Source of the DNA: Terriglobia bacterium
Lineage (GTDB): Bacteria > Acidobacteriota > Terriglobia > Terriglobales > Acidobacteriaceae
Direction of reading: 5' to 3'
Assembly (NCBI GenBank): GCA_020072585.1
Contig: JAIQGL010000016.1
Coordinates: 62,001 to 126,000 of the forward strand
Length of the DNA stretch: 64,000 bases
Every line of letters starts with the position of its first letter. Positions within the stretch are counted from its first letter, which is position 1. Shown here piece after piece: positions 47,656 to 51,353 of this stretch. The notes under the pieces are model-generated. The model was not told where the DNA came from, searched no databases, and saw only the letters and a program-made list of their open reading frames with translations. The position numbers and the translations under genes were made by a program.

Positions 47656-48492
47656 ATGGCAAATTTCGATCCCAGAGTTATTAACGCAACCCCAAGGCCA
47701 GTTTCCGGCACACCTGTGCTGATCGGCATTGGCCTGGTACTAGTGCTCATTCTTAGCTGGGCTTCTCTGGCCTACGTTCCGGCGGGAAACGTTGGCGTGC
47801 TGGTTTATTTCGGACGCGTCACAGGAGAGACTCTGCCCGCCGGGACCCATTTTGTTTCCCCATTCAAGGTCAATCATGTCTTCTCCGTGCGGACGCAGAC
47901 GCAAGAAGAGCACACCTCTACGCCATCCATGGAAGGCCTGAACCTGGAGATGGACACATCTCTCATCTATCACCTGGAGCAGAGCCATGCGGCCGATGTT
48001 TACAGCAAGCTGGGGCCGGACTATGCTCGCACGATCATTGATCCCAACCTGCGCTCTATTATTCGTGATACCACGGCCGGACATTCCGCCAATACGCTCT
48101 ACTCCAGCTCTCGCAAAGAAGTGGAAGATGAAATCAAATCGGGATTGAAGGCCGCGCTGGAGCCGCGCGGCATTGTGGTTGAGAGTGTCCTGCTGCGTGA
48201 CATACAGCTACCGCACACGCTGCGGGCATCGATTGAAACCAAGCAGCAGGCCGAACAGGAATCTCTGGCCATGAATTTCCGTTTGCAGAAAGAGCGGCAG
48301 GAGGCGGACCGCAAGAGGATTGAAGCGCAGGGCGTTCACGATTTTCAGCAAATCGTGGCCCAGGGCATCAGCCCGCAGTTGTTGCAATGGAAAGGGATTG
48401 AAGCCACGGAGAACCTGGCCAAGAGCCCGAACGCAAAAATCATTGTGATTGGTAATCCCAAGAATGGATTGCCGCTGATCATGGGTCAGTAG
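47656..48492 (+). CDS. Prohibitin/SPFH-domain membrane protein
   Basis: 278 residues with an ideal ribosome site (AAGGAGATA). One transmembrane helix (VLIGIGLVLVLILSWASLAYV, about 20-40) precedes the SPFH domain: PAGNVGVLVYFGRVTGETLPAGTHFVSPF, DTSLIYHLEQ, and LKAALEPRGIVVESVLLRDIQLP. A coiled coil follows (IETKQQAEQESLAMNFRLQKERQEADRKRIEAQG). It probably forms membrane assemblies that scaffold or modulate proteases, as prohibitins do; the specific partner is not visible. Confidence 0.9.
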   Translation: MANFDPRVINATPRPVSGTPVLIGIGLVLVLILSWASLAYVPAGNVGVLVYFGRVTGETLPAGTHFVSPFKVNHVFSVRTQTQEEHTSTPSMEGLNLEMDTSLIYHLEQSHAADVYSKLGPDYARTIIDPNLRSIIRDTTAGHSANTLYSSSRKEVEDEIKSGLKAALEPRGIVVESVLLRDIQLPHTLRASIETKQQAEQESLAMNFRLQKERQEADRKRIEAQGVHDFQQIVAQGISPQLLQWKGIEATENLAKSPNAKIIVIGNPKNGLPLIMGQ

Positions 48493-48538: not shown

Positions 48539-49267
48539 CTACTTCAATGCGAAGAGAGCGTTCACATGAGCATTGATGGTTACGGTCTGAGGAGTGAATT
48601 CCGCCATAGGCGCCGGTGTTGCCGCAGCCGTGGCTGACCGTGCCATGCTGGCCAGATTCATGACCACCGGTACAATGGCCTGGCTGACGTCGACTGAGGC
48701 ATAGAGCAGATCGCCAAGCGAGCGTCCGCCGGCTACAGCGACGGCGTTTGCCTGGTTGCGCGCCTTCTTCAGAGCATCTTCAGATGCCCTGGCTTTGGCT
48801 TGCTCAATGTCTTCCAGCGTGTAATTGACGGACTGATTTTGTGTGTCTTCGATGTCGGCCAACTGTTCCGTAACGGAACCGACCTTGGTAAAGTCGCGCA
48901 GCTTTAGAGTTACGTCCGTAGTCACGCGGTAGCCGATCACCCGGCGTTTGGGATTTTTCCAGTCATACATGGGCTGCATCTGGTACATGGCAAACTGGGC
49001 GGTCTTCACATCAATACCGTTGCTCTTCAAAATCTGGCGCACACGGTCAACCGCTATGGCAACGTGATCATAAGCCGCGCGCGAAGTATCCTGTTGTGAA
49101 GCTAAATCCATGCGGATGACTGCGGTGTCTGGCGCAGATTCGAATTTTCCATCGGCTCCGGCATAGATGGTGTTGACTTGCACCATATTGGGAGTGGAGG
49201 AACCCTGCGCTGAGCTAAAAGCGGTCAGCGCCAGGAGCATCAGGAGCGAGCGACTTAATGTTTGCAT
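48539..49267 (-). CDS. SIMPL-domain (DUF541) secreted protein
   Basis: 242 residues from ATG 49267, where a signal peptide begins (QTLSRSLLMLLALTAFSSAQ). The SIMPL/DUF541 pattern is visible: SAPDTAVIRMDLASQQDTSRAAYDHVA, VRQILKSNGIDVKTAQFAMYQMQPMYDWKNPKRRVIGYRVTTDVTLKLRDFTKVG, and KARNQANAVAVAGGRSLGDLL. The periplasmic family has no settled function. It is convergent with the prohibitin gene. Confidence 0.88.
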   Translation of the reverse strand: MQTLSRSLLMLLALTAFSSAQGSSTPNMVQVNTIYAGADGKFESAPDTAVIRMDLASQQDTSRAAYDHVAIAVDRVRQILKSNGIDVKTAQFAMYQMQPMYDWKNPKRRVIGYRVTTDVTLKLRDFTKVGSVTEQLADIEDTQNQSVNYTLEDIEQAKARASEDALKKARNQANAVAVAGGRSLGDLLYASVDVSQAIVPVVMNLASMARSATAAATPAPMAEFTPQTVTINAHVNALFALK

Positions 49268-49382
49268 TGGGAAATCTCTGCTAAAAATACTAACACTCGA
49301 GCCCGGCAAAGTTGCTGGGTCCATTACCTTTTGCGCGGGTTTATCGCTGGCGCGATGAACGTCTGCTATTCGCTGCGCTCAC

Positions 49383-49475: not shown

Positions 49476-49538
49476 ATTGACGTTCCGGCGGGTGAGAATT
49501 TAGGCTAACCATGCAGATCAAGCGGAGGGAAAGAAGCG

Positions 49539-50114
49539 ATGCGTCGAAGAACCGCTGTAAAGATGTTGGGTACGCTAGCGTTGCTGGGACCGACGGCCGG
49601 GACCAGCTTGTTAGGTCAGGAGAAGAAAGAAGCGCCGGCACCGCGGCCAGCACCAGCATTGAAGGTCGGAGACATGGCTCCCGACTTCAGCCTGCGCGAC
49701 CAGACTTTTAAGAACATGGTCTCGCTCCATGACTTCAAGGGGAAGAAAAACGTCGCACTGGCGTTTTACATCTTCGCCTTCACCGGTGGTTGAACCAAGC
49801 ACATGCAGAACTTCCAGGCGAACCTGCAAAAACTGGAAGCTGCAGACACCCAGGTGCTGGGTGTTAGCATGGACAGCCCCTTCAGCAATGCCGCATGGGC
49901 AGAGAAAATCAACGTTACCTTTCCACTGCTGAGTGACTGGGGCGGCGATATCACCAAGAAATACGGCCTCTACGATGAAAAACGTAAGATTGGCCGCCGT
50001 GTAAACTTTCTGATCGATAAAGAGGGCAAGATTGTCGAGATGCAGATTGACAATGAAGCTGTGGATCCAGCCTCGATGGTCGCCTCTTGTGAACGCAGGA
50101 AACTCAAGAGCTAA
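49539..50114 (+). CDS. Selenocysteine peroxiredoxin, in-frame TGA at codon 85
   Basis: One 192-codon frame containing a single TGA (49791-49793) that I read as selenocysteine. The signal segment MRRRTAVKMLGTLALLG fits a twin-arginine signal. The thioredoxin-fold AhpC/TSA domain follows: LKVGDMAPDFSLRD, then NVALAFYIFAFTGG-U-TKHM, matching the peroxiredoxin FYPFAFTPVC-T pattern with Sec at the peroxidatic Cys and the conserved Thr three residues before. The Pro of PxxxTxxC is replaced by Ile. Downstream VLGVSMDSPFSNAAWAEKINVTFPLLSD and the Arg-containing RRVNFLIDKEGKI are typical. GGAGG lies 10 nt before the ATG. A lone Cys at about 184 could be the resolving residue. A nonsense mutation is the alternative, but both halves are intact and in frame. 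Confidence 0.85.
49804..49844 (+). promoter_or_regulatory. Putative bacterial SECIS element
   Basis: Just after the TGA of codon 85, TGCAG-AA-CTTCCAG (49804-49817) pairs with CTGGAAG-CTGCA (49833-49844): 12 bp with a 2-nt AA bulge. The 15-nt loop starts with G and begins 24 nt past the UGA, within the 16-37 nt distance reported for bacterial SECIS apical loops. Inside the loop CAGG-CGAA-CCTG can form an alternative small stem. SelB binding is predicted, not shown. Confidence 0.65.
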
Positions 50115-51353
50115 ATGCCGGTAACCGTTCAGACAGAAGCCCGCCAGGAAATTTCATCCCAGCGGGCACTTTTTTTGCTTTCTCTGGCGCAGTTGCTGGC
50201 CATGTCACTGTGGTTCACCGGGACCGCCGTGATTCCGCAAATCACAACCTTGTGGCATTCCGGGCTGGCCCTGGGATCGTGGCTCACCATCGCCGTTCAG
50301 ATTGGGTTTTCACTGGGCGCCATCACGTTTGCGCTCTTCAACATTCCCGATGTCTTTAGCCCAATCAAGGTACTGGTGGTTTCCGCGATTGCCGCCGCTG
50401 CCGCGAACGCTGCTTTCGCTTTTGCCGCTGCTTCCCCGCTCTCGGCAATTCTGCTGCGTGGAGCGACAGGTTTTTTTCTCGCCGGCGTCTATCCCGTGGG
50501 CATGAAGATTATTGCGGGCTGGTTTCAGCGCGGACGCGGACTGGCCCTGGGAATCATGATCGGCGCACTCACGGTTGGGTCAGCAGTGCCACACGCTGCG
50601 AATGCGATTGGTGGCATCCCGTGGCGGGGGGTGGTTCTGCTGGGCAGCTTACAGGCCTTGCTTGGCGCTTTGATCGTTGGGATTGGTGTTCGCGAAGGTC
50701 CTTATGCCATGCCGCAATCGCGCTTTGATCCGGCGCAGATTCTTGAAATCGTCCGCAACAAATCTCTGCGGCTCGCGAACCTCGGCTATCTAGGACACAT
50801 GTGGGAGCTCTATAGCATGTGGGGATGGATCGCCGTGATCTTCTCGGTGTCCGCCGGGTGGGGACGTACGACGTTTGAAGCCATGGCCGCGCTGGCCATA
50901 GCGATTGGAGCAATTGGCTGCATCTGGGCTGGAGCAGCGAGCGACCGTCTGCAAGACCAGAACGCGGCGATGCGTGTGGCGCAGCGGGCACGAGTCACCA
51001 TGATCGCCATGGCCATCAGCTCGGTTTGCTGCGTGCTGGCTGCCCTGGTTCTGCATCGTCCAGTGCTTCTCATTCCACTTTCAATGATCTGGGGAATCGC
51101 GGTGATCGCGGATTCCGCGCAATTCTCCACCATCATCAGCGAGGTCTCAGACAAGAACTACGTGGGCACGGCGCTCACATGCCAGGTAGCACTGGGATTC
51201 CTGCTGACTGCCGGCGTCATCCGTTTGATGGCTGCCATTGCCGCGCGCTACGGATGGAGTTGGGCACTGGCGAGCATGGCATTGGGACCACTGCTGGGCA
51301 TCTGGGCGATGAGCAAACTGCTTCCCCTCAAGCAGACAGCAGCAAACGGATAG
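50115..51353 (+). CDS. MFS transporter
   Basis: 412 residues with 12 predicted helices. The ATG follows the selenoprotein stop directly (TAAATG). Visible MFS features are the N-terminal LFLLSLAQLLAMSLWFTGTAVIPQI, and GATGFFLAGVYPVGMKIIAGWFQRGRGLALGIMIGALTVGSAVPH. It belongs to the sugar-phosphate/CynX-like group by feel, but no substrate can be assigned. The tight spacing suggests co-expression with the peroxiredoxin. Confidence 0.88.
   Translation: MPVTVQTEARQEISSQRALFLLSLAQLLAMSLWFTGTAVIPQITTLWHSGLALGSWLTIAVQIGFSLGAITFALFNIPDVFSPIKVLVVSAIAAAAANAAFAFAAASPLSAILLRGATGFFLAGVYPVGMKIIAGWFQRGRGLALGIMIGALTVGSAVPHAANAIGGIPWRGVVLLGSLQALLGALIVGIGVREGPYAMPQSRFDPAQILEIVRNKSLRLANLGYLGHMWELYSMWGWIAVIFSVSAGWGRTTFEAMAALAIAIGAIGCIWAGAASDRLQDQNAAMRVAQRARVTMIAMAISSVCCVLAALVLHRPVLLIPLSMIWGIAVIADSAQFSTIISEVSDKNYVGTALTCQVALGFLLTAGVIRLMAAIAARYGWSWALASMALGPLLGIWAMSKLLPLKQTAANG

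Follow-up and report, generated by a model that had tools for sequence, protein, structure and literature searches.

The gene at 49539-50114 of the window, the 64,000-nucleotide stretch of DNA analysed here, very probably encodes a selenocysteine (Sec)-containing peroxiredoxin, in which an in-frame TGA would be decoded as Sec. A peroxiredoxin frame that continues past the TGA, homologues with either TGA or a Cys codon at the same column, Sec insertion genes in the genome, and a conserved hairpin following the TGA form the evidence. The window corresponds to C52:62001-126000 of a 6.9-Mb genome (74 contigs, 96.8% complete).

Reading frame

Two ORFs, 49539-49793 and 49803-50114, were found in the same frame, the first ending in TGA (49791-49793) and the second, which ends in TAA, starting at 49803, three codons past that TGA. 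The joined frame had TGA at codon 85 only, and translation with TGA as Sec (U) gave 191 residues. These coordinates agree with the original prediction that two ORFs are joined through a single TGA; its peroxiredoxin of "191 residues plus Sec" holds as a product read through the TGA, but not in the count, since the 191 residues already contain Sec. The features are listed in Table 1.

Table 1. Features in and around the predicted peroxiredoxin gene (window positions)
Feature	Position	Strand	Remarks and basis
SPFH/band-7 protein (presumed by us)	47656-48492	+	Neighbouring frame
Neighbouring frame	48539-49324	-	
Shine-Dalgarno-like GGAGGG	49524..49529	+	9 bases upstream of ATG; sequence
Predicted selenocysteine peroxiredoxin gene	49539..50114	+	191 codons + TAA, one in-frame TGA; frame, homology, homologues
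N-terminal signal-like stretch, residues 1-27	49539..49619	+	MRRRTAVK, then an uncharged run; cleavage site a guess; crude rule
Ile78 in place of Pro of PxxxTxxC	49770..49772	+	Rv2238c alignment, family rows
Thr82 of TxxU motif (FAFTGGU)	49782..49784	+	Column at least 90% conserved in 53 family members
TGA, predicted Sec85 and peroxidatic residue	49791..49793	+	Frame, homologue column
Predicted bacterial SECIS hairpin	49804..49844	+	MFE, z, 27-row pairing
Cys184, proposed resolving residue	50088..50090	+	Only Cys besides Sec85; C-terminal helix of model
Probable MFS transporter	50115..51353	+	Neighbouring frame; TIGR00893 E 6.3e-9, 35/395 bits (below cut-off)

The dN/dS ratio between the window gene and its homologue L009 was 0.067 downstream of the TGA (98 codons) and 0.056 upstream (25 codons), suggesting that purifying selection is similar on either side. 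Three other comparisons yielded no ratio because synonymous change was saturated, and a downstream value of 0.52 obtained with L036 was discarded, as an indel spoils the comparison.

Peroxiredoxin family and fold

Pfam matches extended across the TGA, to PF00578 (AhpC-TSA, E 4.9e-35) and PF08534 (Redoxin, E 9.4e-23). With the single sequence as query, the top solved relatives were chains of Mycobacterium tuberculosis Rv2238c/MT2298 AhpE (E 1e-24); in the profile search, 2ywn ranked first and AhpE second (E 1.6e-39). The alignment with Rv2238c placed the TGA on the peroxidatic Cys, the position originally proposed for it, and Ile78 on the Pro of PxxxTxxC. An AlphaFold2 model of the mature part, built with 11 sequences, had a pLDDT of 88.4 and a pTM of 0.85. 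Foldseek with this model returned Bcp4 (3hjp) first (TM 0.80) and AhpE near the top (TM 0.80-0.83). None of the NCBIfam cut-offs was reached by the window protein, the highest score being 88.6/140 bits (NF006960); the PrxU model NF040737 gave 77.1 bits vs the 270 required.

Alignment of 53 members revealed 12 invariant columns, including that of C/U, a C-terminal Cys, and an Arg (R115 of A4; 53/53 members) that we take to be the catalytic Arg of peroxiredoxins. This alignment excluded L102, L103, L104, L019, L124, L126, L078b, L079b and the window duplicate L082, together with rows having fewer than 45 residues before Sec or being more than 80% identical (first 100 positions) to a kept row. 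For the counts over 101 family rows given below, L102, L103, L104, L019, L124 and L126 were removed, L104 as misplaced and the others as members of other subfamilies.

The TGA codon in homologues

Scanning of named genomes gave 11 relatives. Ten were close (63-86% identity), with titles naming Acidobacteria, Acidobacteriaceae or Candidatus Acidiferrales, and 10/10 had TGA at the column; the eleventh, from Spirosoma (32% identity), had TGC. L010, a locus from a named record, and L033, from genome G202 of the class to which the window belongs, encode identical proteins; together with the titles of the close relatives, this points to an acidobacterial genome.

At E 0.001, where other subfamilies are counted too, all 299 genomes of the class had a peroxiredoxin match. 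Among the 150 class matches listed, 136 had a single in-frame TGA, with an additional TAG in one case, and 14 had none; all 14 were fetched and showed TGC/TGT at the peroxidatic column. A subset of the 136 was fetched (30 loci automatically, the others chosen by hand) and the place of the TGA was read in the fetched rows, where all 70 distinct TGA rows had it at the peroxidatic column. In a phylum sample of 159 genomes, 23 had a match at E 1e-25. Three of the 25 phylum matches listed came from genomes already sampled; the other 22 lay outside the class, and 21 of them had TGA. Taken together, the 106 fetched rows (other subfamilies included, L104 alone removed) had TGA in 90, TGC/TGT in 16 and nothing else, a ratio that describes the chosen fetched rows and is no population frequency. 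Examination of homologues for Cys or U at this column, as had been advised, therefore gave U or C and no other residue. The second copy at L078 (G028:C60:11031-11474) contained a TAG besides the TGA, and its frame stops short of the C-terminal Cys.

Sec insertion machinery

The window's genome contains selA (543 bits, cut-off 268), selB (385 bits, cut-off 242), selD (371.5 bits, cut-off 125) and a tRNA-Sec gene (73.9 bits, gathering score 47) for which ARAGORN reported the anticodon tca. The original prediction had named these four as a check, and each was present above its curated cut-off. Co-occurrence was determined in 74 genomes of the window's taxonomic family, with selA counted as present at E < 1e-100 and close matches, each with TGA, taken at E < 1e-30. 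The TGA form was present in 14/19 genomes with selA vs 0/55 without it (Fisher p 2.5e-11, relatedness ignored); 5/19 genomes with selA had no close match.

Predicted SECIS hairpin

The hairpin predicted downstream of the TGA has 12 bp in two blocks and a 15-nt loop beginning 24 nt past the TGA; the window's own minimum-energy fold forms 3 extra pairs inside this loop. For the 63 bases from the TGA, the MFE was -15.8 kcal/mol (z -2.32). Against dinucleotide shuffles, the mean z was -1.57 in Sec rows (n = 87; z <= -2 in 31 and above -2 in 56), -0.26 in Cys rows (n = 14; none <= -2) and +0.18 at ordinary TGA stops of the window's long ORFs (n = 21; none <= -2), these controls ending mechanical ORFs of at least 200 aa, some of which are perhaps not genes. 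The p values were 0.0012 for Sec vs Cys and 3e-7 for Sec vs stops, with rows that are related. Random synonymous codons as the reference (bases 0-54) gave a mean z of -1.89 for Sec rows (n = 70) and of -0.38 for Cys rows (n = 15).

Two hairpin designs were observed, the window's type (12-bp stem, 15-nt loop) and a second type (9-bp stem, 3-nt loop) in other families. In 27 distinct rows of the window's type, 90.4% of cells were paired, a value reached by 0/500 shuffles; 2 cells were changed on both sides (reached by 115/500) and the covariation score was reached by 33/500, covariation being weak because there is little sequence variation. In the second type, 91.7% of cells formed pairs and both sides had changed in 17 cells (each 0/500 shuffles), with the numbers of pairs so changed (72/500) and of pair types (484/500) not above shuffles. 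Structure prediction and pair counts thus point to a SECIS hairpin after the UGA. One Cys form that lies within a group of Sec forms (L073:1654-1716) keeps GCG-TATCA-GGT-TGATA-TCGC (z -0.82), which may be a fossil SECIS left by a change from Sec to Cys.

Other readings of the TGA

The two separate ORFs obtained with the standard code are what would be expected if the TGA were a nonsense mutation in a decayed gene or a miscalled TGC/TGT in a Cys peroxiredoxin. However, TGA occupies the same codon in all ten close homologues, which come from separate records, and in 90 of the 106 fetched rows with Cys in the remainder; selection appears to act on either side of it, and the 55 sampled genomes lacking selA have no close match. 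A TGA common to separate assemblies makes sequencing error very unlikely, and decay or error as a whole is considered highly improbable. Equally little credence is given to a true stop, with an 84-residue fragment and a separate C-terminal protein started from the ATG at 49803. The position of this ATG just past the TGA would suit two products, but the fold would then break at the catalytic residue, the codon was never TAA or TAG in 106 rows although a true stop would permit them, and the TGA is accompanied by the hairpin and the Sec genes. Readthrough of UGA occurs in bacteria, and Trp or another near-cognate residue could in principle be inserted here instead of Sec; with Cys as the sole alternative to TGA among fetched rows and Sec machinery in the genome, this is most improbable as well.

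Loss of the motif proline

The peroxiredoxin motif of the window protein keeps Thr and C/U and has no Pro. As the full PxxxTxxC is not present, the protein is termed a variant peroxiredoxin. The replacement of Pro by Ile, pointed out in the original prediction, is real, and 82/87 Sec rows of the family are likewise without Pro, mostly with Ile/Val instead. Family rows alone gave ratios without:with Pro of 82:5 for Sec and 5:9 for Cys. When phylum rows and outgroups were counted, 82/90 Sec rows and 5/16 Cys rows lacked Pro; among distinct rows, the numbers were 68/70 and 5/15 (L019 included), respectively.

In a quickly built tree of 106 rows and 158 columns, with motif columns masked, 42/103 forks open and long outgroup branches, Pro changed 4 times and Sec/Cys 7 times. 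Dependence of the Pro loss on Sec, to which the raw counts point, was not supported by independent pairs (5 pairs on starred branches; median p 1). Pro is retained in two further Sec peroxiredoxins encoded by the window's genome. With the dependence unsupported and Pro kept in these two, the loss is regarded as a trait of the clade that is not forced by Sec.

Pro and Thr of PxxxTxxC are described as "strictly conserved" in PMC5719442, and the PxxxTxxU motif as "highly conserved" in PMC13188914. One tentative explanation, which we hold to be possible without favouring it, is that a lineage of mostly exported two-chalcogen peroxiredoxins (Sec85 and Cys184), present across acidobacterial genomes, dropped the motif Pro because selenium chemistry no longer needs its geometry; Cys forms nested among its Sec forms would have stayed proline-less. 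If true, nature would here have set up a test of the function of the "strictly conserved" Pro. As both Sec and Cys forms occur naturally in the clade, some having Pro and others not, the role of Pro and the benefit of Sec are directly testable.

N-terminus and probable export

By a crude home-made rule, 90/101 family rows have a signal-like N-terminus, suggesting that the protein is likely exported, by the Sec or the Tat route. Twin-arginine export had been proposed from MRRRTAVK. This stretch is indeed present and export is likely, but assignment to Tat is less secure, since the twin-arginine pattern was found by the crude rule in just 18/101 family rows. RRRTAV occurs in the window, L009, L036 and L039, and homologues start with MRKG or MRRG.

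Tandem pairs of Sec peroxiredoxins were observed in class family f5 (L058, L060, L076, L077, L078, L079, L083, L085, L086, L088, L091 and L094). The crude rule detected no signal-like start in the second copies L079b, L086b, L088b, L091b and L094b, as would be seen if a pair consisted of an exported and a cytoplasmic protein.

Cys184 and proposed catalytic cycle

The C-terminal Cys was present in 99/101 family rows. It lay 97-101 residues past Sec/Cys in 84/99 rows, Cys forms included, and in 97/101 rows the domain outside the tail had no Cys except the peroxidatic residue. The Cys184 column was not reached by the alignment with any of the best 60 of 172 matched solved chains. An invariant C-terminal Cys, no other Cys in the domain and no chain aligned there led us to propose a couple of Sec85 and Cys184, a resolving step that we consider somewhat favoured.

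It is rather unlikely, though a rival to be taken seriously for the resolving step, that the selenoprotein works as a 1-Cys AhpE-like enzyme, with Cys184 serving as a structural or anchoring residue and an outside thiol reducing the selenenic acid. One of the nearest solved relatives is AhpE, whose title describes it as a 1-Cys peroxiredoxin, and the failure of the best 60 of 172 profile-search chains to reach Cys184 fits this as well. Against it stand the invariance of the Cys in 53 members, its position 97-101 residues past the peroxidatic residue in 84/99 rows and its retention in Cys forms.

For the favoured couple of Sec85 and Cys184, the following cycle is proposed. Ribosomes with SelB and Sec-tRNA(UCA) would decode UGA 49791-49793 as Sec, aided by hairpin 49804-49844, and the readthrough product would be a 191-residue peroxiredoxin exported from the cytoplasm by its signal peptide, with the periplasm as the most likely destination. 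At that site, the Sec85 selenolate, positioned by Thr82 and the conserved Arg, would attack a peroxide, either organic or hydrogen peroxide. The resulting selenenic acid would be resolved by Cys184, within or between subunits, to give a Se-S bond, which a periplasmic thiol system may then reduce. A selenoprotein acting outside the cytoplasm would raise the question of its reductant there. The window's genome encodes a DsbD-like membrane protein (65 bits, cut-off 27.1), and nothing was found tying it to the peroxiredoxin gene.

Comparison with known peroxiredoxins

In human PRDX5, an atypical 2-Cys peroxiredoxin, the resolving Cys lies about 100 residues past the peroxidatic Cys. The proposed resolving Cys184 is also about 100 residues past Sec85, a likeness of spacing only; no chain named PRDX5 or Peroxiredoxin-5 was among the best 60 of 172 profile-search chains. 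AhpE (Rv2238c) resembles the window protein in its FAFTG-x-C, aligned with FAFTG-G-U, but differs in having Cys for Sec, in keeping Pro and in having no aligned counterpart of Cys184 (best 60 of 172 chains). The likeness to PrxQ/BCP consists of the top rank of Bcp4 in the fold search and the presence of a Sec-BCP (L103) in the same genome; unlike PrxQ/BCP (NF006960), the window protein stays below the model cut-off and has no second Cys close past the peroxidatic residue. With PrxU, a name that presumably belongs to the Eubacterium acidaminophilum protein (NF040737), and with Sec peroxiredoxins in general, it shares the peroxiredoxin domain, Sec at the peroxidatic position and TxxU. It differs from PrxU in its low score with that model, its signal-like N-terminus and the C-terminal Cys invariant in its family.

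Sec peroxiredoxins are an established bacterial selenoprotein family, with 12 in the table of PMC1794560 and 91 in that of PMC5029168, and PMC13188914 gives their motif as TxxU; these sources agree with the earlier remark that such proteins are known in other bacteria. Unlike those with PxxxTxxU (PMC13188914), the window's clade has mostly Ile/Val for Pro. As far as can be judged from sequence comparison, what is new relative to known Sec peroxiredoxins is the usual signal-like N-terminus, the invariant C-terminal Cys and the mostly Ile/Val replacement of Pro. Among open papers, none was found on a proline-less exported Sec-peroxiredoxin clade. A 2025 predictor paper (PMC12013277) lists 3 known selenoprotein genes in Occallatibacter riparius, of the Acidobacteriota; therefore, clade members may already count as plain Sec peroxiredoxins.

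Since the standard code gives two fragments and no NCBIfam cut-off is passed, the gene would probably be split or missed in automatic annotation. As many acidobacterial genomes carry members of the family, selenium-dependent peroxide defence there may be under-recorded.

Genomic neighbourhood and other TGA-containing frames

In the window, the MFS-like frame begins right at the peroxiredoxin stop (TAAATG). At L009, L032, L036 and L039, the gene lies between an oxidative-stress-defence-like gene (NF008299, 67/249 bits) and a probable MFS transporter. No conserved neighbourhood was found within flanks of about 0.6 to 3 kb, the commonest neighbour cluster occurring at 9/91 loci.

Further frames with in-frame TGA were observed. 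The selD gene (L028:1480-2526) has its own at codon 18 (Sec-SelD; hairpin z -1.02). Three peroxiredoxin-type frames of the window's genome, with the TGA in or close to the active site, are L102 (G000:C31:139217-139645), peroxiredoxin-like with FYPLDWSPTUT (hairpin z -1.34); L103 (C31:117389-117781), a Sec-BCP/PrxQ with FYPKANTSGUT (154 bits vs cut-off 140; hairpin z -0.34); and L104 (C3:3997-4302), peroxiredoxin-like with FYRGYWUPFC and a hydrophobic N-terminal stretch (hairpin z -0.31). The hairpin z-scores of these three are weak. The same genome has three formate-dehydrogenase-alpha-like frames with one TGA each (G000:C1:311901-313784, C48:203135-203911 and C66:59563-60312). The best of them scored 627 bits vs a cut-off of 666, and the C1 frame and the gene for tRNA-Sec are about 16 kb apart.
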